DNA of 54,089 nucleotides, taken from Ruminiclostridium sp. (GTDB lineage: Bacteria; Bacillota; Clostridia; Oscillospirales; Ruminococcaceae). The DNA is taken from positions 1-54,089 of the forward strand of contig JAFPUE010000099.1 in assembly GCA_017395555.1 (NCBI GenBank). The letters run 5' to 3'. Below, in pieces: positions 9,061 to 32,554 of the stretch. The translations under genes were made by a program, and so were the position numbers. Under the pieces are notes generated by a model. The model was not told where the DNA came from and did not search any database. It worked only from the letters and a program-made list of their open reading frames with translations. Numbering within the stretch: the stretch's first letter is position 1; each line of letters starts with the position of its first letter.

Positions 9061-9807
9061 ATGAAGATACACGAATTCGGCGAGCGCGGCCGCGGCAATA
9101 TCGTGATGATACACGGCGAATGTATGCCGTGGGAGCTTTTCCGCGAGGCGGTCGATGCTCTTGCGGCGAGGTTCCGTGTTTATGCTGTCTCGGTGCCGGG
9201 ACACGACATCACATCGGACGAGGAATACACATCTGTCGAGGACGTTGCCTCGCGCATAGAGCTCACCCTTGCGCGTTACGGCGTATCGCGCATAGACCTG
9301 CTGTACGGCTTTTCTCTCGGTGGGGCGCTTGCGCTGCGTATTGCGGCAGACGGTTCGATACCCGTTACCCATGCCGTCATTGACGCGGGAACGACACCGC
9401 GCCCGAAGCAGGGCTTTCTTGACAAGCTCCTCTCACCGTCGAATCCGCTCAAACGCGCAAAATACAGCCGTCCCGCGCTTGACAAGGTATTCCCGCCGCA
9501 AAATATAAGCGCCGCATCGGCAGACAGGATATATCTGTTGATGCAGCGAATGTCCGACAACACAATGGACAGGATCTTCCGCACGATGTACGCATACGAG
9601 CTGCCGGAAGTGCTTTCGCTCCCAAACTGTACGTTCGAGTATTGGTACGGCTCCGAAGAAGCCGACTCGCTGAAAGCCGATATAGAATATGTGAGCGCCC
9701 ATATCCCCGGCATCGTCCTCCGCAGCATTGCCGGTATGTCCCACGGTCAGTACGTTCTCAGCTCCCCCTCGCAGTTCGCCGGCGATATCGGCCGAAGAAT
9801 GCTGTGA
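9061..9807 (+). CDS. Alpha/beta hydrolase
   Basis: A 248-aa enzyme of the alpha/beta hydrolase fold. It has the oxyanion motif MIHGE at 16-20, nucleophile elbow GFSLGG at 83-88 (Ser85), and a likely catalytic His in GMSHGQYV near the end. It starts three bases after the acyltransferase stop and is the last gene of the operon. Substrate unknown; pairing with an acyltransferase suggests adding and removing an acyl group, which is inference only. Confidence 0.82.
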   Translation: MKIHEFGERGRGNIVMIHGECMPWELFREAVDALAARFRVYAVSVPGHDITSDEEYTSVEDVASRIELTLARYGVSRIDLLYGFSLGGALALRIAADGSIPVTHAVIDAGTTPRPKQGFLDKLLSPSNPLKRAKYSRPALDKVFPPQNISAASADRIYLLMQRMSDNTMDRIFRTMYAYELPEVLSLPNCTFEYWYGSEEADSLKADIEYVSAHIPGIVLRSIAGMSHGQYVLSSPSQFAGDIGRRML

Positions 9808-9837
9808 AAGTCTCTGCAGATTTCCCTGCGCCTTCGC

Positions 9838-9956
9838 GCTTTGTCCTGCGCGGACGGCGCAAGCCCCCTTTAAAAAAGGGGGCTTGACACCCTACGGCAC
9901 GATGCCGTAAGGAAGTTTCCAAAAGCGCGCACGATGCGCGCATTAAAGAAACTTCC
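9838..9956. repeat. Repeat hairpins and terminator between 9.8 and 10.0 kb
   Basis: Bases 9838-9897 are copy 2 of the CCCCTTTAAAAAAGGGG repeat and can end the upstream operon. Bases 9911-9956 form a longer hairpin (GGAAGTTTC against GAAACTTCC) around GCGCGCACGATGCGCGC; that core recurs at 24852-24871. Confidence 0.6.
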
Positions 9957-9961
9957 GATAA

Positions 9962-10048
9962 ATCTAATGCAGTATTTCAGAGATAAATCTATGGGCTGCC
10001 ACAGACTGAAATGCAGTGGGGTTGGTGGAGACTTCGTTGCTGAATAAC
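9962..10048. repeat. CAACCCCACTGC repeat family, copy 1 (reverse)
   Basis: Read on the minus strand this resembles 25136-25230 (CAACCCCACTGCATTTCAGTC-like core, then CTGCCCATAG and CTCTGAAATACTGCA) and, more weakly, 20696-20798. Confidence 0.55.
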
Positions 10049-10053
10049 AAGAA

Positions 10054-10092
10054 AACAGCTTGCAATAAAAATTTACTGCAAGCTGTTATTTT
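10054..10092 (-). terminator. Bidirectional terminator before the PP2C gene end
   Basis: Arms AACAGCTTGCA (10054-10064) and TGCAAGCTGTT (10077-10087), with T-rich tracts on both outer sides, placed between convergent transcription units. Confidence 0.75.
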
Positions 10093-10105
10093 TATGAAAG
10101 TTCTA

Positions 10106-11710
10106 TCAATTAAACTTGAATCCGAGCATCGTGAGGTCATCGAACTGCGGGGCAGTGCCGACAAAGGCATCAACGGCAGACTTGACGTTGCGGAGTATCG
10201 TCTCGGGATCGGCATCGGGCTGTTTGTTCAGCGCTTCAAGCATTCTCTGGTTGCCGAACAGCTCATTGTTCGCGTCGGTAGCCTCCGGCACTCCGTCGGT
10301 GTAAACGAAGATGCTGTCGCCGTGGAACAGCTCGAAATCGTGCTCGCGGAAACGCATACCTTCCATTGTCGCCACTGCGGGAGAATGACGATATTCGATA
10401 AGCTCATACTTTCCGTCCGCACGGCGTAATGTCGGGTGCTCGTGACCCGCGTTTGCCGCCTTGCCCTTGCCGGTGGAAATTTCAATGATAGCAAGCCATA
10501 CAGTGACAAACAGCTCGGCTTCGTTGGACTCGCAAAGCTGCTCGTTCACGTCCGTAAGTATCTTCGCGGGACTGTATTCGCCGGAGAGCGCACGGTCTTT
10601 TATAAGGGTCTTCGCTATGACCATGAACAGCGCCGCGGGAACTCCCTTTCCGGAAACGTCCGCCATGACCAGCGCAATGTGATCGTCGTCGATAAGGAAG
10701 AAGTCGTAGAAGTCTCCGCCGACCTCCTTTGCGGGAGTCATTGTCGCGTAGATCTCAAATTCCTTCCTTTCCGGGAAGGGCGGGAAGATCGAAGGAAGCA
10801 TATTTGCCTGGATCTGCGTGGCGACATTCAGCTCCGCGCCGATACGCTCCTTCTCGGCAGTGATCTTTGTGATGTTGTCGATGTAGCTGATGATATCCGA
10901 CTCCATCTTTCTGAGGGAGCTTGCAAGGGTACCGAGCTCGAACTTCGCGTTGATCTTGTCGATCTCGTCGCCTTCAACATGGTTGTCGGCAAAGCGCTGC
11001 GCTTCCTTGCTGACCGCAACTATCGGAGCTATGATTCGTCTGTTGAGGTAGAGGGCATAGCCGAGAACCACGGCAACAAGCAGACCTGCCGCGATCAGGA
11101 TAACGTCTCTTACATAGGTGGTACGGGCTTCGTCAAGAACCGACATGGTTTTCTCAACAACAACTATCGCGCAGACATTGCCGGAGGAATCCCTTACCGC
11201 GAGAGCCGCAGAGGTGTGATCCTCGATGTATGTATAGAGGTAGTGATCGGGTCTGTTGCCGGTAGCCACGATGTATTTAAGGTCATCGGTATATGCCGGG
11301 TCAAGGTTGTCGCTCACCATTCCGAGCGGATAGCGGTCATATCCGAGATCCGGGTTGACCGAGTCGTAGATGTACCATATTGTCTTGCAGTCCTCGGAAA
11401 GCCTGCCGACGTAAATAAATCTGCAATCCATAGTGACGGTGAGATCGTCGAGCGCTTTCTGTATCCTGTCGAACTCCTCGTCCGTTTCGAGCGTGTCGAG
11501 ATATTGGGAGAACTTGTCGGGGTTGAGGTAAGACTTCGCGGTCTCCGCTATTTCGTATGCGTTGTTGTTGTACTGCTTTTCGAGCACCTGCGTGAACTCG
11601 TGGTAGCCAAGATAAGCGGTTATAGACGTCAGTACAACGATCACGACGGTCATACCTGCAAGCAGTACGACTGAAAGTCCCTTACCGGCTTTCGGAGATT
11701 TCTTTTCCAT
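10106..11710 (-). CDS. SpoIIE/RsbU-type PP2C phosphatase with extracytoplasmic sensor and HAMP
   Basis: I chose ATG 11710 because AAGGAGG sits 9 bases before it; the frame is open 9 codons further. The 534-aa protein has TM1 at 13-35, an outside sensor of about 165 residues (cache-like), TM2 at 203-222, HAMP, a short coiled coil, then a PP2C domain with the metal ligands DFYD (333-336), DVSGKG (351-356) and a final FDDLTML. SpoIIE/RsbU phosphatases remove phosphate from STAS-domain proteins in partner-switching systems. Its start overlaps the GH3 gene end by 29 bases. A STAS protein (16844-18082) and a HATPase domain (13375-15111) lie nearby, so I infer one pathway. Confidence 0.9.
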   Translation of the reverse strand: MEKKSPKAGKGLSVVLLAGMTVVIVVLTSITAYLGYHEFTQVLEKQYNNNAYEIAETAKSYLNPDKFSQYLDTLETDEEFDRIQKALDDLTVTMDCRFIYVGRLSEDCKTIWYIYDSVNPDLGYDRYPLGMVSDNLDPAYTDDLKYIVATGNRPDHYLYTYIEDHTSAALAVRDSSGNVCAIVVVEKTMSVLDEARTTYVRDVILIAAGLLVAVVLGYALYLNRRIIAPIVAVSKEAQRFADNHVEGDEIDKINAKFELGTLASSLRKMESDIISYIDNITKITAEKERIGAELNVATQIQANMLPSIFPPFPERKEFEIYATMTPAKEVGGDFYDFFLIDDDHIALVMADVSGKGVPAALFMVIAKTLIKDRALSGEYSPAKILTDVNEQLCESNEAELFVTVWLAIIEISTGKGKAANAGHEHPTLRRADGKYELIEYRHSPAVATMEGMRFREHDFELFHGDSIFVYTDGVPEATDANNELFGNQRMLEALNKQPDADPETILRNVKSAVDAFVGTAPQFDDLTMLGFKFN

Positions 11711-13361
11711 AATATGTTTCCTCCTTGCGTTTCTCAAAGAATTTGAGCTTTGAGCCGTCTGTCATTATTCGCAGCGGCTTTGCCTGCTCGGTGCGCAGCC
11801 CTTCCCTGATAAGCTGCTCGTCATATTTGCGGAATGTTCCGGGTTTCAGCCGCGATATCATCGGGCTCCCTATTTCCAGCAGGCTCCGTGAGCCCGCATA
11901 TCCGACGCTGTTGCTGCAAAGGCACCTGTCAAACACTGCCGGTGTTTCGTCGCTGATCTCGTCGTCGGTCTCTATGAAAAGCTCGTATCTCGGCGGGAAA
12001 TGATCGTGGTTTCCCACTACAAAGCAGCCCGTCGCGGATATACCTGTTTTTTCGGCAAAATCCTTCATTGCGCTCTCGAACTGTGCGGTATTGAGCTTCT
12101 CGTCCGCGAGATTGAGCACCATGTTCCTGCGGTAGCATATCTTCACTGCCGGTGCGTTTCCGTATTTCCCGACAACTTCCACTATGTCGCCCATATCGTA
12201 TCTGTACAGCCCGGAAACGGTAGTTATTATGATACCGTATCTTCTTCCGACCTCAATGTCGCGCATGGTAACTATGTGCTCCGGGTCGTCCTCATCCGTA
12301 AACTCAAAGAAGCAGGTATCCGGGGTAAGCACATACTCGTCGCTTTTGTCGAGGTACGGCACGGCACCCAGAACGGCTTCCGACGCGCCGTAAACGAAGC
12401 TGTGGATATGTATGCCCTCGGTGTATTTTTTCAGCTTTTCCGTGTGATCCGCAAACGTGCTTCCCGTTATGACACGGATATATTTCAGCTTTTTCCATAT
12501 TTTTTTCAGCATACCGGTCTCAAGATCGTCCGGGGATAACGTCCGCAGATACGCGGCGCGTTCAGGCGCGGGCGGAAGATGCTCCGCGAGATATTCCCGC
12601 CACTCCCGGCTTATACGGAATTTCGGGTTCACCGTTCCTTTTTCCGTGTCTTCGACAAGCTCCGCCCAATTGCTGCGGATAAACTCCAGCATAATGATCG
12701 TGCGGTGTACGAAGATGCCGTGTATGCCGGTAATGTTTTCGTTCGCGAGCGCGAACCTTATCTTGACATACATCATATTCTGCGGCACCGCGGGGAAAAG
12801 TACCTCTTTCGGAGCCGTGAATACCGAGCAGTCCAGTTTTCCTTCCTTGAACGCGAGCTGCGGGTATGCGCCGGAGCGAACGCCGTTCGGTGTGCCGTCC
12901 GGCATTTCCGTCATAAACACATCGCCCGAGTTGAAGATGCAGCCGAAGAGCTCTTCCTGACTCAGACCGGGCAGAGCCTCCGTTATAACGTCGCGGGGCA
13001 CGTCCTCGAAATACATCTTCTGCTGCGCGATATCCTCGGCGCAAAGGGGAAAGTATTTCGGAAATCCGGTGCTTCCCGAGCTTATGTTGTAGAATACCGG
13101 CGGGTCAGCGGTGAGCATATCGTGTTCGCCCTGTATGATACGCGCGATATATTCCTCGTAATCGGCGAATGAGGTGACCGGAACGCTTTTCTTATAATCG
13201 TTATAGCCGGTTATTTCGCCGAAGCCGTGCTCGCGCCCGAATTCGGTCTCGCTGTTTTTTCGTATTATGCGCTCAAGCAGCCTTTCCTGCTCCCCGTAAG
13301 CGTCGCCGCAGACGGAGCGCAGGTGCGAAAGAGCGCCGTATTTGTGGTCTGTGCTGTTCAA
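11682..13361 (-). CDS. GH3-family acyl-adenylating enzyme
   Basis: A 559-aa member of the GH3 superfamily, best known from plant enzymes that adenylate a carboxylic acid and join it to an amino acid. The three nucleotide-binding motifs are visible: SSGSTGFPK (94-102), YGASE (324-328) and YRYDMGD (386-392). It starts 13 bases after the MATE-HATPase stop and overlaps the phosphatase gene, so the three are one operon. I infer that it activates a small acid or fatty acid for conjugation; the substrate cannot be read from the sequence. No carrier-protein gene is nearby. Confidence 0.88.
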   Translation of the reverse strand: MNSTDHKYGALSHLRSVCGDAYGEQERLLERIIRKNSETEFGREHGFGEITGYNDYKKSVPVTSFADYEEYIARIIQGEHDMLTADPPVFYNISSGSTGFPKYFPLCAEDIAQQKMYFEDVPRDVITEALPGLSQEELFGCIFNSGDVFMTEMPDGTPNGVRSGAYPQLAFKEGKLDCSVFTAPKEVLFPAVPQNMMYVKIRFALANENITGIHGIFVHRTIIMLEFIRSNWAELVEDTEKGTVNPKFRISREWREYLAEHLPPAPERAAYLRTLSPDDLETGMLKKIWKKLKYIRVITGSTFADHTEKLKKYTEGIHIHSFVYGASEAVLGAVPYLDKSDEYVLTPDTCFFEFTDEDDPEHIVTMRDIEVGRRYGIIITTVSGLYRYDMGDIVEVVGKYGNAPAVKICYRRNMVLNLADEKLNTAQFESAMKDFAEKTGISATGCFVVGNHDHFPPRYELFIETDDEISDETPAVFDRCLCSNSVGYAGSRSLLEIGSPMISRLKPGTFRKYDEQLIREGLRTEQAKPLRIMTDGSKLKFFEKRKEETYYGKEISESR

Positions 13362-13374
13362 GTAATAATCTCCT

Positions 13375-15111
13375 TCAGATCAGGATTATAAGAGTATTCA
13401 GTCCCAGAACTCGTTTGTACACTGTGGACTTCACCAGCTTCTTTATTATCATGATACCCATGAATTTGTCGTCGTTTTCGTCTCCCGAAAGCGGGTCAAA
13501 GTCGATGCCGTTGTATCTTATGCGAATACCGATGATATCGTCTGTCGCAAATACTCTGATGTCAAAGTTGATTTTCGCATCCTTGTTTTCCTGCGTTATC
13601 AGCGTCAGCATCTCCTCTATGGCGAGACTTATGCGCATGGTCTGCTTGGGGTTCATACCGTTTTCGCCGCAGAAATCGGTTATACGCTCGCTCGCCGAGC
13701 ATATATCCTCCGTCTCGCCGGTCAGCGAGAAGTTGATGACCTTGCCGCTGTCCTCAAGCGAAATGTCTTCCAGCAGGAACCTGCTGGTGTTCTTCTTTTT
13801 CCGGCAGGCTATCCCGCTCACGACGAACCATACCGCCAGCGTGAGAAGCTCGGCGGTGGGCAGGAACAGCCACGGTATATGCCCCGCAAGACAGAACCCG
13901 AATATAGTCACCGCCGCGAAAACGAATGAGCGCAGCGTTATTATCATATTCGACAGCATAGGGTGAGAGGATATGCTGTAAAACGTTGAGAGGATACTGT
14001 TCACAAGCGCCGGGTAAAGGCTTACCGCAAGGCACAGCATGGGTATGAACATCGGCAGACCGATACCGTAAGCGGTGCTTATAAGATCGGCACCTGCGGT
14101 TATCACAATGCCGAACAGCGCGGAGAGAATGATGCCGCTGAGAAATTCGAGATGTATAACTATGCGCAGGCTCTTTATATCGTGCTCGCCGTGGTAAACT
14201 CCGAGCATTGCCGAGCCTGCCTGCGGCACACCCACTGTAACCGCGTCCGAAAACGTGGTGATACCGTTGAGCACGGAGAATATCGCGAGCGCGTCATTTC
14301 CGCCGTACTTTGCGAGAACATAGTTCACGAACAGCAGCTTTACCGTCTGCATAAGGTTATTTATCGCGGCGGGACTGCCGGTAGCGGCGATCTTGCTCCA
14401 CTGCTTCTTATTCGGAAGTGCGGGTTTTAGCGTAAAGGAGGAGGGCTTGCGGTGAAGGCCGTAAAACCCGAGTATGCAGGCAGCCGCAGTCGCGATAACG
14501 CTTGCGAGAGCCGCACCTAAAATGCCCATATTTAGCAGGAACATAAAGACTATATCGAGTATGACGTTCCCGATACCCATTACGGTCATCATAAGGGTTA
14601 CGGTCTTGTTTTTGCCGTCGATACGCAGGAACCAGAACGGTATGTAGATAAGTATTTTCGGCGCGGCACCGATAAGCGTAACTAACGTGTAGTCATGCAC
14701 CATAGGGCGTATTCCGTCGTCGGAGCACAGAAGCCCGGATATAGGTCCCGTAAGGAAAATGCCGACGAGCATTGCGGCAGCTGAGGATATAAGGCAGGTA
14801 GTAAGCGCGCTGCCGTAGTATTTCTGCGCTTCCTCGCTGTTGTCGCTGCCGATGGACTGCGAAGCGGGTATAGCCGTGCCGGAAACGAAGAATGAGCCGA
14901 TTATGCAGAGCACGAGATAGACCGGTATGCAGAGGTTTATTGCGGCAAGACCGTTTGCGCCGGCTTTCTGCCCGACGATAATGCCGTCTGCGATTATATT
15001 CACGCATCCGCTGAGTATTGTCAGCATACACGGGATGAGCGCGGCGTTATACGCCTTTTTCAGGAATGTTTTGTCCTGAACGAGTTTATTTGTGGTATTG
15101 ACGTTGTTCAT
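13375..15111 (-). CDS. MATE-family transporter fused to HATPase (anti-sigma-kinase-like) domain
   Basis: A 578-aa fusion. Residues about 15-445 are a MATE-type transporter with about 12 membrane segments (ADGIIVGQKAGANGLAAINL near the start). After a basic linker (CRKKKN), residues about 460-578 form a HATPase_c domain of the RsbW/SpoIIAB kind. The N-box region reads AIEEMLTLI (497-505), with Leu504 where the Mg-binding Asn is expected, and the later boxes are loose (YNGIDFDPL, KFMGIMIIKKL). ATP binding or kinase activity may thus be altered or lost. It is first gene of the operon with GH3 and PP2C. I infer that transport, or the domain's hold on a STAS partner, is set by the switch. Confidence 0.87.
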   Translation of the reverse strand: MNNVNTTNKLVQDKTFLKKAYNAALIPCMLTILSGCVNIIADGIIVGQKAGANGLAAINLCIPVYLVLCIIGSFFVSGTAIPASQSIGSDNSEEAQKYYGSALTTCLISSAAAMLVGIFLTGPISGLLCSDDGIRPMVHDYTLVTLIGAAPKILIYIPFWFLRIDGKNKTVTLMMTVMGIGNVILDIVFMFLLNMGILGAALASVIATAAACILGFYGLHRKPSSFTLKPALPNKKQWSKIAATGSPAAINNLMQTVKLLFVNYVLAKYGGNDALAIFSVLNGITTFSDAVTVGVPQAGSAMLGVYHGEHDIKSLRIVIHLEFLSGIILSALFGIVITAGADLISTAYGIGLPMFIPMLCLAVSLYPALVNSILSTFYSISSHPMLSNMIITLRSFVFAAVTIFGFCLAGHIPWLFLPTAELLTLAVWFVVSGIACRKKKNTSRFLLEDISLEDSGKVINFSLTGETEDICSASERITDFCGENGMNPKQTMRISLAIEEMLTLITQENKDAKINFDIRVFATDDIIGIRIRYNGIDFDPLSGDENDDKFMGIMIIKKLVKSTVYKRVLGLNTLIILI

Positions 15112-15135
15112 ATCAGAATTCCGATTTTATATTTT

Positions 15136-15317
15136 TATAGGCTATACCGCACAAAGATTGTGCTTGTATTGTGCAGTCGAATTTTTCGTCAGATTGGCTA
15201 AAAGACACGCAGGCTTGCCAGCGCAAGTCAAGTGGATTTGGGGCAATATGACGGAAAAGGCGCAAGCAAGACAAGTGCAAAGGCGCTGGCCGTGCTTTGT
15301 GCGGTATTGCCAATATA
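15136..15317. mobile_element. MITE-like element, copy 2
   Basis: The ends TATAGGCTATACCGCAC and GTGCGGTATTGCCAATATA form the terminal inverted repeat. Inner parts match copy 1 read in reverse (TTTTTCGTCAGATTG, GCAGGCTT, CGCAAGTCAAG, ATGACGGAA, GCAAGCAAGA). No ORF. It lies between the promoter at 15353-15381 and the MATE start, so it forms most of the mRNA leader. Confidence 0.75.
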
Positions 15318-15352
15318 ACAATTGTATCTTTATCAAAGCATACATATATTAA

Positions 15353-15381
15353 ATTTTATCATATATCTGCGCAAAAGTCAA
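15353..15381 (-). promoter_or_regulatory. Promoter of the MATE-GH3-PP2C operon
   Basis: Minus strand: -35 TTGACT (15376-15381), 17-base spacer, -10 TAAAAT (15353-15358). The leader to the ATG at 15111 is about 235 bases and includes the element at 15136-15317. Confidence 0.65.
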
Positions 15382-15393
15382 TATTCCGCCGCG

Positions 15394-15428
15394 AAAAATC
15401 CGTCATTCCCTTCCGGGAACGACGGATA
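15394..15428 (-). terminator. Terminator of the PrsW-like gene
   Basis: Hairpin TCCGTC-rTTCCC against GGGAAyGACGGA (about 15399-15426), followed on the minus strand by TTTTTCG. It ends the membrane-protein/PrsW unit just ahead of the MATE promoter. Confidence 0.75.
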
Positions 15429-15453
15429 TGATCTGTTATGCGATTGTCGGTCA

Positions 15454-16098
15454 TCAGCCGTTCTTCTTCGCTTTTCTGCGCCGGCTCAGTATTATTACGG
15501 TGACCGGGATATACACCGCTGCTGGCAGTATTAGTGCTATTGCACGGAGATTTGACTGCACGAGTACGTTGAATGTCGCGTGGAAGATGATAGCAAGGGT
15601 CAGGAGTGAGAACGTACCGCAGAAAAACAGCTTTCTGCGCTTTCTGATGTAGCTCATTCCCATTCCCACCGCCGCCGTGCAGGCACCGTGCATGAGCGCT
15701 GCACCAATGACTCTCGAAAGAGCCCAGAGCACGGACACGTTGTTGATCTGCTGTGTGAGTATGACGGCATTTTCAAGCACCGCAAATCCCACACCGAGCG
15801 AGAAGGATATCGAAAGCAGCGTATCTCTGTCGTCCGAGAACAGAACCGCGAAATACAGCACCGGTATCGCCTTCATAAGCTCCTCGCTTATGGGGGTTAT
15901 GTTTGTGGTGACATACATACCGTCGCCGCCGAAAAGCCCGAGCAGCCAGAGGTTTATGCCGCCCGCCACAAGGCATACCGTAGCGCCCACGATCATGTAG
16001 CCGAGGAACAGCCTTGATTTCTTGTCGTGCAGTATGAAAAGCATCGGTATCATAGGCAGCGCGATGCAGATATAGAGAATACCGCTCATTTGCTCCAT
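15454..16098 (-). CDS. PrsW-like intramembrane protease
   Basis: A 214-aa protein with about 7 membrane segments. The PrsW/glutamic-protease motif set is present: PISEELMKAIP with Glu72-Glu73, FAVLEN (105-110), His137 in MHGAC, and HATFN (173-177). PrsW of Bacillus cuts the anti-sigma factor RsiW within the membrane. Here no classical RsiW-like anti-sigma factor is seen, so its target is unknown; the neighbouring membrane proteins are candidates. It overlaps the upstream gene by 13 bases, indicating co-translation. Confidence 0.8.
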   Translation of the reverse strand: MEQMSGILYICIALPMIPMLFILHDKKSRLFLGYMIVGATVCLVAGGINLWLLGLFGGDGMYVTTNITPISEELMKAIPVLYFAVLFSDDRDTLLSISFSLGVGFAVLENAVILTQQINNVSVLWALSRVIGAALMHGACTAAVGMGMSYIRKRRKLFFCGTFSLLTLAIIFHATFNVLVQSNLRAIALILPAAVYIPVTVIILSRRRKAKKNG

Positions 16099-16748
16099 GA
16101 CCGCACCCCCTTATCCATTGCCGGTATAAGCGCGGCGGAAACGATACATTGCAGGATTATGGTTGTCACGATAAGAGGCTCCGAGTTGTACGCTATCGCC
16201 GTCATTTCAAGCATACACAGGATACCGTATGAGAGCGCGAGTATGTTGAAAAGCCTGAGGCAGCTGACAACGCCGTAGTCGATATCGGGTATGAAAATAT
16301 GCTTCATGTGGAAGTATGACGCTGCCGCTATGAACAGCGCGACGATGCCGTCGGTTATTTTCAGTATTTCCGACGCGCCGCTTATGGCTACGGCACCGTA
16401 CAATACAGCCGTGATGACCACTCCCGCGATCGCGATAATGCGGTATTTGAGGAACGACTTATCCCCGTCGTCCACCAGCGAGTCTATCTGACCGTAGTTC
16501 GACGAGAAGAAGAACGCGAATGCGCCTATCGTTCCGAGCGTGCCGACGTGGAATATACCCATTATCGTAAGCCCCGTGATATATCTCGCGAGAACATACG
16601 CGCGTCCGAGCATTATACAGCCCACTCCGAGCACTATCATCGAAGCGTACAGAGGCTTGTGCGGCCTTAAATACCGTACAGCACCGTAAATGAAGCTGCC
16701 TGCCGCCGAAACGGTAAGCGCTATATTCAGAATAAGAATTATGTCCAT
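16086..16748 (-). CDS. Seven-helix membrane protein of unknown function
   Basis: A 220-aa protein that is almost entirely membrane segments (about 7) with a short loop holding DSLVDDGDKSFLKY. It has its own promoter and overlaps the PrsW-like gene, so the two probably act together, perhaps as substrate or partner of the protease. I cannot place it in a family. Confidence 0.7.
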   Translation of the reverse strand: MDIILILNIALTVSAAGSFIYGAVRYLRPHKPLYASMIVLGVGCIMLGRAYVLARYITGLTIMGIFHVGTLGTIGAFAFFFSSNYGQIDSLVDDGDKSFLKYRIIAIAGVVITAVLYGAVAISGASEILKITDGIVALFIAAASYFHMKHIFIPDIDYGVVSCLRLFNILALSYGILCMLEMTAIAYNSEPLIVTTIILQCIVSAALIPAMDKGVRSWSK

Positions 16749-16802
16749 GATCTCTCCGCTTTTTCTTTGCCGGGCAGTCAGCCGCGGCTGATTTACACAT
16801 AT

Positions 16803-16831
16803 ATTATACCACAGACCGGGTAATTTTGCAA
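16803..16831 (-). promoter_or_regulatory. Promoter of the membrane protein/PrsW unit
   Basis: Minus strand: -35 TTGCAA (16826-16831), 17-base spacer, -10 TATAAT (16803-16808). Confidence 0.75.
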
Positions 16832-16843
16832 CAGCATATTTAG

Positions 16844-18082
16844 CTATCCGAGATCGTTGAACCCCGTAGTCCGCAGTATCTCAAGAACGTCGGGAGTAAG
16901 GTTGGCAGTCCTGAATTTGAAGCTGTCCTTTTCCGCCGCTTTGTAGATCATCAGCAGTGCCCGTATCCCGGCAGAGGAAATATATGTGCAGGCGGTCATG
17001 TTCAGCGTTACCGTCCGGAGCCGGTTCATGCTTCTGCATTTTTCAAATTCTTCGATAAGCTGCGGCGCAGTGACCGCGTCCAGTCTTCCGCTCACCCAAA
17101 GGGTAGCGTCGTTGTTCTTGCTTGCGGAGCTGACGTTGAACCGGCTTCCCGATGTGCTGCCGCCCGCGTCAAATTCCGGCTCCGATACGGTCATAGCGAG
17201 GAAGCAGTCTTTTTCGCAGACCCTTTTCACATTCTCCGGTATATCGAGCTCGTCGGCAAACGTCTCCATTGCAATTTTTCTGACCGTAAAGCCGCTTTGC
17301 TTAAGGAGAGCGGAAACATCGTCCCCGCCGAGCCGCATGAAGCTGTTGTTGGTTATCGTGCCGCTGTGTAAGGCGATAAGCGGCTCTGTGACGGCTTTGC
17401 ATTTCTGCGGATCATATCCGCTCGTCGCGTTCTCCGTCAGCAGCTTGTCTCTCTTCGACGTTCCGAAGTCCGCGGTCACCCAGACTCCGCTGTATTCCGC
17501 CAGCAGCTTGTATATGTTGCCGATGACGGTCTTCAGCTCGTTTTCGGTGAGGTACATCATTAAGCTCTCCGTGAGGATAAACAGCGGCTCCTTAACGTTC
17601 AGCGCCGAACGCAGCGCGTTGTAGTCTGTCACGTCCGCCGCGATGTAGCTCACGCGGTTTCTGTGCATTACGGAGCCTGTGGCTTTTATCACCGCGCTAT
17701 CCATTTTGTTTATTATGGGCGGCAGATCTATGCCTATGTATTTCTCCGTCTTTTTTTCGGTGAATGCCAGCCCCCTCGGGTCCATACCGCAGCCGAGATC
17801 GGCGAAAGCGTTCATTCTCAGTGCTTTGAAAAGGCGGTCTGCCGCCGTATGCCGCAGCCACACGGCTGCACCGATATTCTTTATTATTTTTGCAAAGATC
17901 TCCCGCTGCTCGGTATCGTGCAGTGCCGGAGCGAGATTATATGAAAACAGCGGCTCGTTCAGTGCTTTGAGCAGCCTGTCCGCGTATTTGTCACCCATTG
18001 AAGCACAGCCTGCAAGTCCGGTCTTGCTTGCGATCATTGCCGGATTTAGCTTTTTTATAATATCCTCGTACTTCTCGGCCAT
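16844..18082 (-). CDS. LCM-type methyltransferase fused to C-terminal STAS domain
   Basis: A 412-aa fusion. The N-terminal about 290 residues resemble leucine-carboxyl/O-methyltransferases (LCM, PPM1-like). The SAM loop is DLGCGMDPRG (95-104), the acidic loop is GIDLP (117-121), and ESLMMYL follows. Residues about 318-412 are a STAS domain as in SpoIIAA/RsbV; TYISSAGIR places Ser370 at the position of the phosphorylated serine. A STAS domain on a small-molecule methyltransferase suggests that the enzyme is switched by phosphorylation, with the HATPase domain at 13375 as kinase or holder and the PP2C at 10106 as phosphatase. This is inference from domain logic and proximity. The gene stands alone under its own promoter. 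Confidence 0.85.
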   Translation of the reverse strand: MAEKYEDIIKKLNPAMIASKTGLAGCASMGDKYADRLLKALNEPLFSYNLAPALHDTEQREIFAKIIKNIGAAVWLRHTAADRLFKALRMNAFADLGCGMDPRGLAFTEKKTEKYIGIDLPPIINKMDSAVIKATGSVMHRNRVSYIAADVTDYNALRSALNVKEPLFILTESLMMYLTENELKTVIGNIYKLLAEYSGVWVTADFGTSKRDKLLTENATSGYDPQKCKAVTEPLIALHSGTITNNSFMRLGGDDVSALLKQSGFTVRKIAMETFADELDIPENVKRVCEKDCFLAMTVSEPEFDAGGSTSGSRFNVSSASKNNDATLWVSGRLDAVTAPQLIEEFEKCRSMNRLRTVTLNMTACTYISSAGIRALLMIYKAAEKDSFKFRTANLTPDVLEILRTTGFNDLG

Positions 18083-18132
18083 AAGCTGCGTTCCTCCCGG
18101 TCTTTTCGGCGCGGATTTATTCCGTCAGTACA

Positions 18133-18161
18133 TATTATACCATATATCATTTCCGATATCA
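18133..18161 (-). promoter_or_regulatory. Promoter of the methyltransferase-STAS gene
   Basis: Minus strand: -35 TTGATA (18156-18161), 17-base spacer, -10 TATAAT (18133-18138). Confidence 0.78.
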
Positions 18162-18202
18162 AGTTCGAAATGGTTTTGCCCGAACTTTCTTTTCAAAAAG
18201 TC

Positions 18203-18231
18203 TTGCATTTTTTTTCATAATGGTGTATAAT
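18203..18231 (+). promoter_or_regulatory. Promoter of the thiamine operon
   Basis: -35 TTGCAT (18203-18208), 17-base spacer, -10 TATAAT (18226-18231), directly ahead of the TPP riboswitch. Confidence 0.8.
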
Positions 18232-18238
18232 GATCGTG

Positions 18239-18327
18239 TTAAGGCGGGAGCTCGTGCAACGGGCTGAGATAAGGGTGTGACCCTTGACCGTGAACCTGAT
18301 TTGGGTAATGCCAACGTAGGGACGGAC
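18239..18327 (+). ncRNA. TPP riboswitch (THI element)
   Basis: The conserved THI-box blocks are all present in order: GGGCTGAGAT, ACCCTTGA, GAACCTGATTTGGGTAATGC and CAACGTAGGGA. It binds thiamine pyrophosphate and lies between the promoter and the thi genes. The intrinsic terminator at 18346-18380 is its likely expression platform. Confidence 0.95.
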
Positions 18328-18345
18328 TGAATACAGCTTGTTCGT

Positions 18346-18380
18346 AACAGAGGCTTGCCCGAGGGGGAAGTCTCTGTTTT
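18346..18380 (+). terminator. Riboswitch-controlled terminator
   Basis: Stem AACAGAGGCTT against AAGTCTCTGTT with a TTTT tail, 20 bases after the aptamer. TPP binding would favour it and stop transcription before thiW. Confidence 0.75.
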
Positions 18381-18394
18381 GCGTAAAGGAGGTA

Positions 18395-18424
18395 ATGCCG
18401 ATATCCCGTGAGTCGGGCGGATAG
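18395..18424 (+). CDS. Possible 9-codon leader peptide in thi leader
   Basis: A perfect AAAGGAGG site stands before ATG, then nine codons in all (MPISRESGG) and TAG. A second candidate, TTG at 18437 after AAGGGGAG, could give an 18-residue Cys-containing peptide (MCLVFCDGNP...) ending at 18493. The 18381-18552 leader also forms several hairpins, including GGAATG/CATTCC at about 18505-18526. It may be a second control layer or chance; no thiamine-related codon bias is seen. Confidence 0.3.
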   Translation: MPISRESGG

Positions 18425-18552
18425 AAGGGGAGCGCCTTGTGTCTTGTATTTTGCGATGGGAACCCGTGTTTCGGGGCGAGAGGGAGAAATTGATCTCCGA
18501 CCGGCGGAATGTAATGTTTTCATTCCGAAAAAAGCGAAAGAAGGAATAACAA

Positions 18553-19278
18553 ATGAAGAACTCAAAGGTTCTGAAAATGGCTGTGCTCTCCATGCTCGTT
18601 GCTCTCGGTGTCGTCATTTCACCGATATTGCGCGTGGAGGGTATGTGCCCCATGGCACATTTCATTAACATCGTATGCTCGGTGCTGCTCGGACCGTGGT
18701 ACTCGCTGCTGTGCGCAGCGCTGATCGGCGTTATCCGCATGGCACTTATGGGAATACCGCCGCTCGCGCTTACCGGAGCGGTCTTCGGCGCGTTTCTGTC
18801 GGGCGTGTTCTACCGCCTGTCAAAGGGCAGACTGATCTTCGCCGTGCTCGGTGAGGTCATCGGTACCGGCATTGTCGGCGCGATAGTCTCATACCCCGTG
18901 ATGACGTTCCTGTGGGGAAAAGAAGGACTGAGCTGGCTGTTCTATATCCCGTCGTTCACCGCGGGAACGCTTATCGGCGGCAGCATCGCCTTCGTTTTCC
19001 TGCGAAAGCTCGCGGACAACGGTATGCTTGCGAAAATGCAGGCTTCGCTCGGCTCGCACGCATACGCCGACAAGCGCAGCGTGCTTTCTACTGCGCTTAC
19101 TATCGCCGCGTTCGGCGCGATAGCGTTTGTCGTGATAGAGATACTTATGAACATATTTATGCTTGAGGGCGATGTATGGCAGTATATAGCCTACGGCTCG
19201 CTCGGTGCGTTCGCAGCCGCGGCTGTGGTATATTTTATCGTGAAAAAAGCGGGGAGGGAAAAAGCGGTTGATAAATAA
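18553..19278 (+). CDS. thiW: ThiW, thiazole-specific ECF transporter S component
   Basis: A 241-aa membrane protein. Residues 1-160 match ThiW (SPILRVEGMCPMAHFINIVC, GPWYSLLCA, LTGAVFGAFLSGVFYR). ThiW binds the thiazole precursor of thiamine and works with a shared energy-coupling module, which is not encoded here. The C-terminal extension of about 75 residues adds two membrane segments after a charged loop and is longer than usual for the family. It is first in the operon under the TPP riboswitch, and its end overlaps thiM by 11 bases. Confidence 0.9.
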   Translation: MKNSKVLKMAVLSMLVALGVVISPILRVEGMCPMAHFINIVCSVLLGPWYSLLCAALIGVIRMALMGIPPLALTGAVFGAFLSGVFYRLSKGRLIFAVLGEVIGTGIVGAIVSYPVMTFLWGKEGLSWLFYIPSFTAGTLIGGSIAFVFLRKLADNGMLAKMQASLGSHAYADKRSVLSTALTIAAFGAIAFVVIEILMNIFMLEGDVWQYIAYGSLGAFAAAAVVYFIVKKAGREKAVDK

Positions 19279-20065
19279 GATACGCGGCTCGGTGAAGGAG
19301 CTGCACCCGCTTGTACACTGCATTACGAACCCTATATCCATAAATCAGTGCGCGAATGTCATACTTGCCGCGGGCGCACGTCCGATAATGGCGGAGCACC
19401 CCGAGGAAGCCGCAGTGGTCACGCGCACTGCCGCTGCCGTTATGCTAAATCTCGGCAACATCACCGACGTTCGCAAACAGTCTATGCTTATTTCGGCGCA
19501 GACGGCGAAGGAGCTCGGGATACCGTTTATTCTGGACGTTTGCGGCGCTGCGTGTCTCCCGACAAGGCGGGACTACGCGCTCTCGCTTATCGGTAAAGCC
19601 GTCCCGTCCGTTGTCAAGGGCAACTATTCCGAGATAAACGCGCTCTGCCATGAGCATTACAGCTCGTCCGGCGTTGATGCGGACATCACTCTCGGAACGC
19701 CGGAGCTCGATATTGCTGCGGTGCGTCTTGCCCGCGGATACGGCACAGTCGTTCTCGCGAGCGGCAAGACCGATATCGTCACCGACGGAAAGCGGCTCGT
19801 ACACATCTATAACGGCAGTCCGCAGCTCGCCTCGATAACCGGCACCGGCTGTATGCAGGGGGCATTGTGCGCGGCGTATCTCTCGTCTGCACCCGCAGCG
19901 GAAGCGGCTGTCGCGGCCTGCACAGTATTCGGGATATGCGGCAGCCTCGCCGAGACGGAGAAGGGAAGCGGCACTTTTGCCGTGAACCTCATGGACGCGC
20001 TCTCGACGGCAACAGACAGCGATATTTCAAAATACGCCGACACGGAGGAGATAGACGTTGAATAA
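19268..20065 (+). CDS. thiM: Hydroxyethylthiazole kinase
   Basis: A 265-aa ribokinase-like enzyme. It phosphorylates 4-methyl-5-hydroxyethylthiazole, salvaged through ThiW. The signature stretches are LVHCITNPISINQCAN, the GARPIMAEHP loop and the catalytic end GTGCMQGAL. TTG at 19268 is the start, with GGGAGGG upstream and an overlap with thiW. Confidence 0.95.
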   Translation: MINKIRGSVKELHPLVHCITNPISINQCANVILAAGARPIMAEHPEEAAVVTRTAAAVMLNLGNITDVRKQSMLISAQTAKELGIPFILDVCGAACLPTRRDYALSLIGKAVPSVVKGNYSEINALCHEHYSSSGVDADITLGTPELDIAAVRLARGYGTVVLASGKTDIVTDGKRLVHIYNGSPQLASITGTGCMQGALCAAYLSSAPAAEAAVAACTVFGICGSLAETEKGSGTFAVNLMDALSTATDSDISKYADTEEIDVE

Positions 20066-20693
20066 GTGCGATACCCGAATTTACTTTATAACCGACAGCA
20101 CACCATACAGCGAGGAGGAGTTCCTTTCTCGCACGGAAGCGGCACTGCGCGGCGGTGCAACGCTGATACAGCTCCGTGAAAAGGAGCGCACGACACGCGA
20201 ATATCTGACGCTTGCGCAGAAGGTGCATACTCTTGCGCAGCGGTACGGAGTCCCGCTTATCATAGATGACCGGCTTGATGTGGCAATGGCATCGGAAGCG
20301 GAGGGCGTACATCTCGGACAGAGTGATCTGCCGATAGCGACTGCGCGGCGTATATGGGGTGCGGATAAGATCATCGGCGCGACTGCAAAGACCGTTGAAC
20401 AGGCAAAGGAAGCGTATGAACAGGGCGCGGATTACCTCGGTGTGGGTGCGATATATCCCACGACAACGAAGGTAAAAACTATCCTTACATCTGTTGAGAC
20501 ACTTGCGGATATCTGCCGCACGGTACCGATACCGGTGAACGCGATAGGCGGTCTGAACAAGGATAATATTGATGTCCTCAAGGGTGTTCCGATAGCGGGA
20601 ATATGCGCGGTCTCTGCGATAATGAAAGCCGCTGACCCGGAGCTTGCCGTGCGTGAGCTTTCCGAGGCGGTGCGCACAAAACTTGGTTTCTGA
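20058..20693 (+). CDS. thiE: Thiamine phosphate synthase
   Basis: A 211-aa TIM-barrel enzyme that joins HMP-PP and thiazole phosphate. Family motifs: GGATLIQLREKE, LIIDDRLDVA, GVHLGQSDLP, IGATAKT, YLGVGAIYPTTTK and VNAIGGLN. The start is TTG at 20058, after GGAGG, overlapping thiM by 8 bases. Confidence 0.95.
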   Translation: MNKCDTRIYFITDSTPYSEEEFLSRTEAALRGGATLIQLREKERTTREYLTLAQKVHTLAQRYGVPLIIDDRLDVAMASEAEGVHLGQSDLPIATARRIWGADKIIGATAKTVEQAKEAYEQGADYLGVGAIYPTTTKVKTILTSVETLADICRTVPIPVNAIGGLNKDNIDVLKGVPIAGICAVSAIMKAADPELAVRELSEAVRTKLGF

Positions 20694-20695
20694 CG

Positions 20696-20830
20696 AGTTT
20701 AGCTATACTCTGCCATTTTCGCATTGGTGTCTTTACCAACCCCCATTCATTTCTTGCAGAGCGACCCGCTGATGTATCTTAGAAATACAGCAGTCGCACG
20801 CGCCGGCTTCGGCGCCGCGATAATTCCGTC
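20696..20830. repeat. Repeat-filled gap in the thi operon
   Basis: Bases 20696-20798 are a diverged copy of the CAACCCC repeat seen at 25136, and 20800-20815 is a GCGCCGGCTTCGGCGC stem-loop shared with 5653. The 166-base gap splits thiE from thiD; no promoter is clear in it, so the stem-loops may lower read-through. Confidence 0.5.
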
Positions 20831-20859
20831 TGAAAATAACAGAGTGAAGGTGAAAAAAG

Positions 20860-21663
20860 ATGAAAACTGCTCTTACCATTGCCGGCAGCGATTCAAGCGG
20901 CGGAGCCGGTATTCAGGCCGATATAAAGACAATGCTCGCGAACGGCGTGTATGCTATGAGCGCGGTAACGGCACTTACGGCGCAGAATACCACCGGAGTG
21001 CGCGCTATCATGGAATCCTCGCCGGAATTTCTCGCACAGCAGCTCGACGCGGTGTTCGAGGATATCTTTCCCGACGCGGTAAAAGTCGGAATGGTGTCGT
21101 CCGCCGGTCTTATCCGCGTGATCGCGGGTAAATTGCGATATCACGGTGCGCGCAATATCGTCGCGGATCCCGTTATGGTAGCAACAAGCGGTGCGTCACT
21201 CATAAAGCCCGATGCTGCCGAAGTGCTCGGAAATGAGCTGCTTACCGCGGCAGACCTTGTTACCCCGAATATCCCAGAAGCGCAGATACTTTCCGATATG
21301 ACCATTCTCGGCAGAGACGATATGCAGAAAGCCGCGGAGATCATAGGTAAAAAGTTCGGCTGCGCAGTGCTGATAAAGGGCGGTCACAGCATAAATGATG
21401 CGAGTGATCTGCTGTACGCAGACGGGGAAATGCGGTGGTTTGAGGGCAAACGCATAGACAACCCCAATACCCACGGTACCGGCTGCACGCTGTCGAGCGC
21501 GATAGCCGCTAATCTCGCGAAAGGCTTTGATATGGCGGAAGCCGTCAGCCGCGCAAAAGATTATATATCCGGCGCACTCGGAGCAATGCTCGATCTGGGA
21601 CAGGGCTCGGGACCTATGAATCACGCCTTTGATATTAATTCCCGCTTTGCGGAGGAAAAATAA
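20860..21663 (+). CDS. thiD: Hydroxymethylpyrimidine/phosphomethylpyrimidine kinase
   Basis: A 267-aa ribokinase-fold enzyme making HMP-PP by two phosphorylations. Motifs: [19 protein letters not shown] at the N-terminus, VVDPVM-like [27 protein letters not shown] and the catalytic [15 protein letters not shown]. It follows the repeat gap and precedes thiC by 20 bases. Confidence 0.96.
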
Positions 21664-28476: not shown

Positions 28477-28670
28477 CTTTCTGCCTCCAGCGGCAGAAAG
28501 TAACCAAAGAACGCCGCTCCCGCCCGCCTCTCTTCGAGTCACCGGTTACATCCTTCTATTGGATAGCGCAGATTGGTGCCCTCAGAGTAGTCGGGCGGGA
28601 GGACTGCACGGAGAGGTTTCTGCTCCGCCGGTTCACGGCGGGTCCGGAATTTTGCTGACTGATAAAGTAA
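28477..28670. repeat. Non-coding stretch with a CTTTCTGC...GCAGAAAG hairpin
   Basis: CTTTCTGC (28477-28484) pairs with GCAGAAAG (28493-28500), followed by TAACCAAAGAACGCC and later short GGGCGGGAGG and GCGGGTCCGG blocks. I see no gene in 28383-28829 apart from the element at 28671 and the promoter at 28749. Confidence 0.45.
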
Positions 28671-28720
28671 AGACTATACCGCACAAAGATTGTGTTTGTA
28701 TTGTGCAGTATTGCCTAAAT
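28671..28720. mobile_element. MITE-like element, deleted form, copy 3
   Basis: The first about 40 bases (ACTATACCGCACAAAGATTG, then TTGTATTGTGCAGT) are nearly identical to the left end of copy 2 at 15142-15176, and the end (GTATTGCC) matches its right end. The middle is missing. It lies about 30 bases ahead of the -35 box of the EAL gene. Confidence 0.65.
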
Positions 28721-28777: not shown

Positions 28778-28829
28778 CAAAATGGTATATTGTAACCAAT
28801 GTGTTATCCGTCGGGATATAGGAGCATTT

Positions 28830-31800: not shown

Positions 31801-32174
31801 GTGACGGAAGCGACGGCGTTGGCATAGGAACTGTCAGGGGTCCGTCGGCTTCGGTGGCGGTATCGGAGACGGGAATGACCGTCGAGGTGAACGCGGCAAA
31901 CGGTACAGCTATCGGCGCTATGGACGGAAGAACGGAATTCACAGTCTTTTCCGCGTCGCTCAAGGCGAACAGCGCGGGCGATAATGTGCTTGCGTTCGGA
32001 GGATACGGCACGGATACGAAGATAGATATGGAGAAAGCGGATATAAAGATCAGCGTAAAGAACAAGCTGAACATAGATACATACGCGAGCGAAGAAAACA
32101 TATCTATCAGAGACGGCAGCGCCCGTTTCACTGTCAACGGCAGTACGGTTGAAAGAAAAGTCGATAATGACTGA
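28830..32174 (+). CDS. Sensor-EAL-beta-helix protein: c-di-GMP phosphodiesterase fusion
   Basis: I chose ATG 28830 (GGAG five bases before it, consistent with the promoter). The 1114-aa protein has four parts. Residues 1-290 resemble a LacI-type periplasmic-binding sensor without its HTH (KRIAIFVGQ, AYLSGKRWH, VVSYDSTDEGQ). Residues about 300-490 are GAF-like. Residues about 510-755 are an EAL domain with all expected catalytic residues (EAL at 531-533, FINS, DDYGTGYS from 645, KIDRSLL, AEGVET, QGYY). Residues about 757-1114 are a repetitive beta-helix-like region (GIGAASGEKNG, VGIGAFSGDA, VCVGSMEGKA, VGIGTVRG). It has no signal peptide. It likely cleaves c-di-GMP in response to an intracellular ligand; what the beta-helix does is open. 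Confidence 0.85.
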   Translation: MSKKRKRIAIFVGQADESYQSRFISGFLGKAFVYDLDVCIFSMYRKYQDTAEREKGESNIFSLMIPDMYDAAVIIEDSIQTAGAAKALEDRLHATFKKPVLVIEKESEYFPSIFTDCYGAVVELVSHLIEVHGFKDIAYLSGKRWHEHAQLRLKAYRDAMEKHELPVDEDRIVYGDFWYQSGEVCADHLTADGRKLPEAVVCANDAMAVGLGKAFAARGIRIPEDVAVVSYDSTDEGQTSPVTLTSSLIPAKEFGSYAAEHIFNSINGKETEPFTIDPPLLIGESCGCTEMNMPSLTIRRQEWGTDISDEGFDSVNNTMADNIMSQNDLREYLGMVFSYAYQIKGAHSFHLCLAAPWKYMNSDSGISVNNDSYPDKMIYALRYNSEHKDGHVGLDMMFDTNELLPAIDEDRDEPAAYFFTPVYSERQCFGYACVSYGNDARSYDDVYRRWIGLVSRGFENIRRSLAIQSMQEQLDKMRKNKFAAAGAVYESLTAEEKEDYDLVGKILDENLLTYHFQPIVNTVDGAIYSYEALMRSKTEKRVSPLAIIKYADMQGRLADVERATFLNVLSIVDTCKPDFGSAKVFINSIPGVRVSDSDFAKMEEYLKKHADTAVVEFTEEAQLSDEELDERKEFFRKLDIKIAVDDYGTGYSNVSNLLRYMPNYVKIDRSLLSDIHNKPQKQHFVREVINFCRDNNIMALAEGVETSEELRTVINLGADLIQGYYTAKPSPDLIPQIDEKIREEIRLWHREYVEGSAGQVYIAGKTNRVSLPSLVKDGCTEIVVGQGTMVYKDISVIGTPGQKTNIHIRIEPGYNGRITLENVNLSNTNGRSCVELGEDSDVTLVIAGENCLHNSGIYVPESAHFTLEGDGNLKINLNMSEFYGIGAASGEKNGELVFQQSGALTIHTRGIAGTCIGSDLGGTIRIKAGMYSIESDCNAGVGIGAFSGDADVDIVGCSMEIWVAAVHGVCVGSMEGKANVKIDHCSFKASCDGSDGVGIGTVRGPSASVAVSETGMTVEVNAANGTAIGAMDGRTEFTVFSASLKANSAGDNVLAFGGYGTDTKIDMEKADIKISVKNKLNIDTYASEENISIRDGSARFTVNGSTVERKVDND

Positions 32175-32550: not shown

Positions 32551-32554
32551 ATTA

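Follow-up and report, generated by a model that had tools for sequence, protein, structure and literature searches.

Partner switching is known chiefly as a means of freeing sigma factors, and less often as a control on enzymes. Here a minus-strand block of six genes (positions 10106..18082) is examined in a 54,089-nt stretch of the rumen bacterium Ruminiclostridium sp., contig JAFPUE010000099.1 (GCA_017395555.1), hereafter the window, in which partner-switching parts are joined to a transporter and to an enzyme. The core of the block consists of a MATE-family exporter with a C-terminal HATPase domain (MATE::HATPase), a GH3-type enzyme and a sensor PP2C phosphatase. On balance it is probable that this core is a partner-switching module free of any sigma factor, in which a STAS protein docks on a pseudokinase tail of the exporter and gates the export of a small molecule post-translationally.

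The SpoIIA/Rsb systems (SpoIIAB, RsbW, SpoIIAA, RsbV) share with the locus a PP2C phosphatase, an RsbW-like HATPase and a STAS protein with an acceptor serine. They differ in that the contig of the window carries no sigma factor, and in that the HATPase of the window module is part of a transporter and is devoid of catalytic residues. Multi-domain SulP sulfate transporters likewise join a transporter to a domain of partner switching, but that domain is STAS, whereas the one in the window comes from the other side of the switch and is RsbW-like.

SiaABCD of Pseudomonas aeruginosa (PMC8457831, PMC7647112) resembles the locus in its PP2C phosphatase, kinase and small switch protein, and its unphosphorylated switch protein binds and activates an output other than a sigma factor (PMC8457831). 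That switch protein is, however, a DUF1987 protein (SiaC) and not a STAS protein, the output is a diguanylate cyclase and not a transporter, and a HATPase relic on the output is not among the features that this account describes (PMC8457831). Neither a DUF1987 SiaC protein nor a SiaD diguanylate cyclase is found by Pfam among the six genes of the block, where STAS occurs instead. In the SypE/SypA system of Vibrio fischeri a STAS protein likewise acts downstream of a kinase/phosphatase protein, but the description given there includes no transporter fusion (PMC10120452), and the target is called unknown elsewhere (PMC3999984). Control of non-sigma targets, including enzymes, by partner switching (PMC3999984) and non-sigma outputs as such (PMC8457831) have already been published. 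Among the open-licence matches listed, no title or opening of an abstract concerned HATPase (RsbW-like)-fused transporters or STAS-fused methyltransferases, which is weak evidence that such proteins are undescribed.

Core genes of the block

The core genes, and the tail of the exporter, are as follows.

10106..11737, minus strand: sensor PP2C phosphatase with an N-terminal membrane/sensor part, a HAMP-like linker and a SpoIIE-type PP2C domain (residues 350-542)
11682..13361, minus strand: GH3-type acyl-adenylating / amide-forming enzyme (Pfam GH3 N, M and C)
13375..15111, minus strand: MATE-family exporter with a C-terminal degenerate RsbW-like HATPase domain (Pfam, profiles and motif alignment)
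13378..13779, minus strand: degenerate HATPase (pseudokinase) tail of the exporter, with N-box Asn replaced by Leu and G1 Asp by Tyr

The initial annotation had described six minus-strand genes here, with a HATPase domain on the exporter and a STAS domain on a methyltransferase. All six open reading frames are in place at the positions listed here and below, and both fusions proved real by the open reading frame list and Pfam. The same annotation had noted that no sigma factor was present; this holds for the whole contig, on which there is no sigma-70 region-2 match, against 13 elsewhere in the genome. On contig C8 of that genome a HATPase adjoins a sigma-70 match, a pair that is probably an ordinary spoIIA-type locus.

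The phosphatase matches Pfam SpoIIE at 1.2e-43 and HAMP at 0.0022, the latter under the Pfam cut-off. It aligns to RssB (3es2) and to SiaA (6k4e) and has the Asp motifs GDF, DVSG, TDG and DD, so that a SpoIIE-type PP2C with the features expected of a partner-switching phosphatase is present in the window. Its best NCBIfam match is SiaA, at 73 bits and far below the 700 cut-off.

All three Pfam domains of the GH3 enzyme exceed their cut-offs (N, M and C at 7.8e-61, 4.9e-21 and 1.7e-14), and the ATP/AMP motifs of GH3 amido synthetases are found as SSGSTGFPK, YGASE and LYRYDMGD; by the same strict patterns, at least one motif is missed in several relatives. Since the protein gives a near full-length match to the plant GH3.6 enzyme 7vka (1.8e-46), an acyl amide is the likely class of product. 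OlsH is also a bacterial GH3 enzyme, and formation of acyl-AMP and then of an amide is expected of both, but the operon in the window differs from that described for OlsH and the substrate probably does too (PMC12493201). Identity with this lyso-ornithine lipid synthetase was rejected at 61.6 bits, compared with an NCBIfam equivalog cut-off of 620 bits. A different arrangement of a GH3 domain was seen in locus L065 (G024:C191), where a solo STAS gene is followed by an 867-residue glycosyltransferase-GH3 fusion and then by an AMP-binding enzyme.

A degenerate HATPase domain on the exporter

The exporter is recognised by Pfam MatE at 6.6e-20 (71.9 bits against a cut-off of 24.9) and scores 119.3 with NCBIfam TIGR00797, under the cut-off of 147.4. 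HATPase_c_2 on its tail is the weak one among the domain calls (6.8e-4, 20.1 bits, under the 27.4 cut-off). The call stands because a profile of the eight GH3-linked MATE tails matches a profile of six solo RsbW-like HATPases in hhalign with a probability of 97.1 (E 6e-11), while two unrelated profiles give a probability of 0.1. The profiles were trained iteratively on the same loci, which makes their E-values optimistic, and profile-profile comparisons with control profiles are the cleaner test. A profile of 22 MATE tails gave weak matches in the PDB, with the HATPase of the sensor kinase VraS (4gt8, E 0.0051) first, followed by RsbW (6m36, 0.023) and SpoIIAB (0.03-0.036); the tail is best regarded as a HATPase domain that is weakly closest to sensor-kinase and anti-sigma types. 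It is conserved to the same degree as the pump core, at 76.9 and 75.9 per cent identity, respectively, between the window and the nearest named relative, uncultured Ruminococcus RUG12593 (L039).

In SpoIIAB and RsbW, Mg-ATP is bound by the N-box Asn, the G1 Asp and the G1 Gly; the tails were aligned to RsbW 6m36. All eight GH3-linked tails have Leu or Val in place of the N-box Asn, and Tyr or Cys in place of the G1-box Asp, while all six of the solo HATPases aligned retain both residues. An active kinase was therefore rejected for the GH3-linked set, where these residues are gone in 8/8, and the HATPase of the window pump is probably not a kinase. The initial annotation had assigned it the role of switch kinase, a part that more likely falls to a separate solo HATPase where one is present. 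In L049, L050 and L088 the intact and the degenerate form stand within one operon.

The same contrast extends to the loci fetched as a whole, in which all three residues are intact in 41 of the 43 kinase-type HATPases but in only 3 of the 73 fused to transporters (p 2.7e-25, an overstated value as the sequences are related). Distinct sequences from the first gene caller were counted, and kinase-type comprises solo, PP2C-fused and STAS-APH-fused domains; eight other long HATPase proteins, seven of them intact, resemble ordinary histidine kinases (one was checked) and were left out, and their inclusion gives 48/51.

Conservation of the module

The core of MATE::HATPase, GH3 and sensor PP2C recurs across several genera and families. 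The three genes lie directly together in L039, L049, L050, L087 and L088; GH3 is in two pieces in L051, one gene intervenes in L205, and in genome G024 the set is split over contig ends. The fullest form, STAS - MATE::HATPase - GH3 - PP2C - HATPase, is that of L049 and L050, while L088 reads ATP-grasp - MATE - GH3 - PP2C - HATPase and has no STAS, and L087 reads MATE - GH3 - PP2C. L205, which belongs to a different family within the same class, has a 751-residue gene between MATE and GH3 - PP2C. Two loci, L089 and L090, have STAS - GH3 - PP2C::HATPase and no pump (the STAS of L090 by six-frame check only). Of the nine GH3 modules whose upstream side could be read, five have a solo STAS gene (L049, L050, L052, L089, L090). 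The downstream side could be read in ten, and five of these have an intact HATPase, which is a solo protein in L049, L050 and L088 and is fused to PP2C in L089 and L090. L051 and L205 are without a kinase, and their upstream side is not readable for STAS.

GH3 is rare, occurring in 5 of 41 genomes (G000, G002, G007, G011, G024), and directly adjoins MATE::HATPase in the first four, although in two pieces in G007; in G024 the two parts, MATE and GH3-PP2C, each fall at the end of a contig (L052, L066), and the module would extend across these ends. In an order-wide sample GH3 was found in 13 of 394 genomes, eight of them with strong matches (E < 1e-30), of which five have it in switch modules (G000, G119, G171, G239, G394) and three do not (G118, G231, G399). 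A single GH3 clade for the module was not found; two groups carry it.

The pump, the GH3 enzyme and the phosphatase have diverged in a correlated manner. In seven modules with three whole genes, Mantel correlations of their distances were 0.956 for MATE-GH3, 0.834 for MATE-PP2C and 0.821 for GH3-PP2C, and of the 5040 permutations 6, 21 and 2, respectively, gave values as high; L051 and G024 (split) and L089 and L090 (no pump) were left out. There is also a hint of transfer, as L087, from another family, is nearer the window than L050 of the same genus in both the pump (50 versus 34 per cent) and GH3 (40 versus 29 per cent), a pattern that PP2C does not follow (52 per cent for L087, 55 per cent for L050). 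Of the five genes common to the window and L039, GH3 has the lowest identity at 54.5 per cent, and the sensor part of the phosphatase is 64 per cent identical, compared with 91 per cent for the PP2C domain; a constant phosphatase domain beside a variable sensor and a variable enzyme supports the proposed switch.

Tagged transporters and their neighbours

Similar domains are carried by transporters of other types. SDF symporters have the HATPase domain at the N-terminus (L117, L169, L170, L209), and ABC ATPases have it at the C-terminus (L061, L166-L168, L171, L208-L212). Pfam identifies the transporter type in L117, L169 and L170 (SDF) and in L166, L168 and L171 (ABC), and NCBIfam does so in L061 (ABC); our own profiles, and not Pfam, are what identify L209 as SDF and L167 and L208-L212 as ABC. 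Compared with solo RsbW-like HATPases in hhalign, a profile of eight ABC tails gave 97.2 per cent and one of four SDF heads 91.7 per cent. In L166 (4763-8227) amino-acid binding domains, a permease, an ABC ATPase and a degenerate HATPase tail form a single protein of 1154 residues. Three loci combine a transporter-fused degenerate domain with PP2C, STAS and an intact HATPase: L169 (consecutive genes for PP2C, HATPase::SDF, STAS and HATPase), L168 (STAS, PP2C, HATPase, a binding-protein/permease fusion and ABC::HATPase) and L117 (PP2C and HATPase, and further on STAS and HATPase::SDF).

Tagged exporters also keep the company of switch genes. A PP2C, STAS or other HATPase gene lies within 6 kb of 33 of the 44 MATE::HATPase genes and of none of 18 plain MATE genes (p 1.9e-8, related sequences being treated as independent). 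This is a six-frame recount with all open reading frames of at least 60 residues; the first gene caller, which keeps the longer of two overlapping frames and lost some genes, gave 32/44. Left out were the window, the duplicate L116, two loci that had come in through GH3 (L087, L088) and L044, the last being a plain MATE found through PP2C with PP2C and STAS within 6 kb, whose inclusion makes the control 1/19. MATE::HATPase-like matches had led to 30 loci (L136-L165), in 24 of which the first caller gave such a gene; on six-frame check the gene is also whole in L136, L160 and L161 and split in L164 and L165, and L163 has a PP2C-HATPase protein. These six stand outside the MATE counts, and L060 likewise gave none by the first caller. 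Two of the 20 control loci (L183, L191) are without a MATE call.

The export of a small molecule, which the initial annotation had suggested with GH3 and the methyltransferase as its putative joint makers, gains support from the genes adjoining MATE::HATPase: of the 12 scanned, 8 have a recognised family. Among the eight are two nonribosomal peptide synthetases (NRPS), of 3007 residues with a reductase-like domain and of 2720 residues (L056, L155), two formyltransferase-like proteins (L055, L149), a GNAT protein (L156) and an ATP-grasp protein; the remaining four, in L053, L054, L148 and L151, are without a family. L155 has STAS and HATPase genes upstream of its pump. Other neighbours of tagged pumps are GH3 itself, ATP-grasp (L088, L099), an FGGY kinase (L098), a tyrosine phosphatase (L063) and STAS-APH-HATPase proteins (L140, L142). 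Such enzymes point to the export of locally made small molecules and, less firmly, to its control.

The STAS-tagged methyltransferase

16844..18082, minus strand: LCM-type methyltransferase with a C-terminal STAS domain (MTase-STAS; Pfam LCM and STAS)
16973..16975, minus strand: Ser370 codon, predicted STAS phospho-acceptor, invariant in 15/15 aligned proteins

The most upstream gene of the block encodes both parts in one protein, with Pfam STAS at 4.7e-13 and LCM methyltransferase at 4.8e-10 (40.1 bits against a cut-off of 22.3); TIGR00027 reaches 29.7 against 93.55. Ser369 and Ser370 are invariant in the 15 proteins aligned of the 16 called (L128 was left out). Ser370, which we take to be the STAS phospho-acceptor, lies within an SSAG/DSAG motif aligned with 4hyl and 1sbo, and the window accordingly has a STAS protein with a predicted acceptor serine.

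As a conserved member of the gene set, which the initial annotation had made it, this protein did not hold up, in distinction to MATE::HATPase, GH3 and PP2C, which are kept together in several loci. It was rejected as a core member of the module: no copy turned up when L039, L049, L050, L052, L087, L088, L089, L090 and L205 were searched in six frames, with an upstream flank of about 2 kb in L087 and nearly none in L205, and in the closest relative, G412, a 40 per cent homologue lies on another contig. MTase-STAS is a real STAS-tagged enzyme whose membership of the module is local at best; since there is one full-length match in the genome, it may still be a local recruit.

Its family is a separate one with many copies, the other members of which adjoin solo STAS genes (L118, L119, L120), an NRPS gene (L118), PP2C and HATPase genes (L117, L119) or STAS-APH kinases (L110, L111, L124). 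In L118 (9306-13897, genome G002) a solo STAS, an MTase-STAS and an NRPS-like protein with AMP-binding, carrier and condensation domains are encoded consecutively. STAS-APH fusions form a family of their own, found in L041, L049, L061, L064, L110, L116, L130, L133 and others, some of them beside MTase-STAS or MATE::HATPase; the one tested is TIGR02172-like (93 bits, below the 228 cut-off), and those of L138, L140, L142 and L145 have an additional, intact C-terminal HATPase.

Proposed mechanism and alternatives

In the mechanism favoured here the membrane phosphatase would sense an outside cue and dephosphorylate the STAS protein, which a separate RsbW-like kinase would rephosphorylate. That kinase would be the solo or PP2C-fused HATPase where one is present, and for the window would act in trans, probably from elsewhere in the genome, which has intact HATPases on other contigs such as C37. 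Unphosphorylated STAS would bind the degenerate tail, which is predicted to have kept the RsbW-like fold and probably lost the ability to phosphorylate STAS, and docking would switch MATE export of a small amide-type product of the adjacent GH3, with activation and inhibition both possible. The MTase-STAS of the window, encoded upstream, may represent an additional, recruited partner. The observations themselves comprise the gene content, its conservation, the parallel divergence of exporter, GH3 enzyme and phosphatase, and the missing kinase residues. From them we infer the binding of STAS to the tail, the gating of transport and the class of product, and the scheme is proposed by analogy with SiaABCD, in which the unphosphorylated switch protein activates an enzyme. 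A broader proposal is plausible, if somewhat short of probable: unrelated transporters of Clostridia (MATE, SDF and amino-acid ABC) may have acquired a kinase-dead RsbW-like receptor for STAS, by which partner switching gates transport without a sigma factor or transcription, and the GH3 module of the window would be one case of this, coupled to acyl-amide export. If so, a degenerate anti-sigma-like domain in transporters would turn partner switching into a means of gating uptake and export after translation, one that occurs in bacteria of the rumen and gut. Tagged pumps would then offer a genomic handle on biosynthetic loci still to be characterised (GH3, NRPS, ATP-grasp, formyltransferase-like), many with an adjoining PP2C that would hold the sensor for the inducing cue.

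Several observations weigh against a gate of this kind. The modules of the window, L039 and L087 have neither a solo STAS nor an adjoining intact kinase, most of the 14 SDF and ABC fusions are without a full switch set in the stretch fetched, and 11 of 44 MATE::HATPase loci have no switch gene within 6 kb. The last include L056, with its NRPS neighbour, whose tail is one of the three intact transporter-fused ones and has no switch gene in reach. In addition, 15 of 39 MATE tails not linked to GH3 retain Asn and Asp, most differing only at the G1 Gly (Cys or Ala), and with this milder loss some of them may still bind ATP. The 11 solitary loci might also be taken to mean that the tail is a relic domain with no part in signalling and that the gene order is due to chance, but this is very improbable given a tail conserved like the pump core, the strong enrichment of neighbours (33/44 versus 0/18) and the recurrence of similar domains on three transporter types. 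The mechanism of the initial annotation, in which the pump HATPase is the kinase that phosphorylates the STAS domain of the methyltransferase, draws on the kinship of the tail with RsbW, the presence of both fusions in one gene block and the lack of any other HATPase gene called beside the window module; it too deserves very little credence, with the N-box Asn and G1 Asp gone from every GH3-linked tail, an intact HATPase in L049, L050, L088, L089 and L090, and no conservation of MTase-STAS beside the module.

Transporters are known as co-sensors in other systems, and information could also flow the opposite way, from a transporter that acts as sensor and whose tail binds or releases STAS according to its transport state, thereby reporting flux to the kinase/phosphatase/STAS circuit with an output elsewhere, for example in transcription. 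Degenerate tails on exporters, symporters and importers alike would fit such a general role, as would the many further STAS and HATPase matches in the genome. This is nevertheless unlikely for the locus at hand, in which the PP2C of the same operon already has a sensor part and the contig has no sigma factor, and the biosynthetic enzymes that adjoin several pumps make the pump resemble an output. Less likely again is a scaffold, in which STAS-tagged enzymes (the methyltransferase and the APH-like kinase) dock on HATPase-tagged pumps as a synthesis-export complex whose assembly is controlled by phosphorylation. Linkage of STAS-tagged enzymes to one another (L110, L111, L124) and to MATE::HATPase genes (L061, L064, L138, L140, L142, L159) speaks for it, as does the position of MTase-STAS upstream of the pump in the window; however, GH3 itself has no STAS domain, the STAS of GH3 modules outside the window is solo (5/9), and MTase-STAS was not found in the other module loci examined. 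The switch acting on the pump through STAS docking is accordingly preferred.

Other features of the block and the window

10054..10087, minus strand: terminator-like stem-loop 3' of the PP2C gene (consensus match)
15112..15453, strand not assigned: dispersed repeat in the gap between the PrsW and MATE genes, with partial copies in the window and genome
15454..16098, minus strand: PrsW-like intramembrane protease (Pfam PrsW)
16086..16748, minus strand: 220-residue membrane protein paired with PrsW (no Pfam family over cut-off)

The PrsW-like protein matches Pfam PrsW at 1e-16 (61.5 bits against a cut-off of 23.5) but at 24.4 bits does not reach the 225-bit cut-off of the NCBIfam PrsW site-1 protease equivalog; it is 86 per cent identical to its counterpart in L039 and 70 per cent in L120. 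The 220-residue membrane protein has no convincing Pfam family. Their genes overlap in the window, and the pair is retained in L039, L120 and L219, lying away from the GH3 module in genomes G011 and G002 (L120, L219). PrsW matches occur in 3 of 41 genomes, all three of which also have GH3.

The initial annotation had treated the genes as one minus-strand block, and all six are in place, but a single transcription unit is doubtful. In L039 the PrsW and MATE genes overlap and membrane protein, PrsW, MATE, GH3 and PP2C form one run, whereas in the window a 342-bp gap 5' of MATE, occupied by the dispersed repeat, separates MATE from PrsW. Judged by consensus matches only, positions 9700-18600 hold 15 promoter-like sites against 9.0 expected and 21 terminator-like sites against 9.7 expected, one of the latter being that 3' of the PP2C gene. 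Three minus-strand promoter-like sites precede MTase-STAS (18162), the membrane protein (16831) and MATE (15381), the last lying inside the repeat (15381-15353). The inserted repeat and these sites weaken the case for a single unit, and the block may comprise three transcription units split by the repeat. Partial copies of the repeat were seen in the window at 4-141, 28668-28709 and 32499-32551, and also in L044, in L045 and L130 (which cover one and the same place), and in L068.

Elsewhere in the window, a polysaccharide-type cluster on the minus strand (36375-48326) encodes glycosyltransferases, a Polysacc_synt/MurJ-like protein, Wzy_C, a radical SAM-SPASM protein, a metallophosphoesterase and a GGDEF protein, and in a 1130-residue protein (28782-32174) an EAL domain is combined with a periplasmic-binding-like domain of LacI type. 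Divergent from MTase-STAS, positions 18553-21663 hold genes that look like a run for the transport and salvage of thiamine precursors; the first has ThiW as its counterpart in L039, and the others are putative members.

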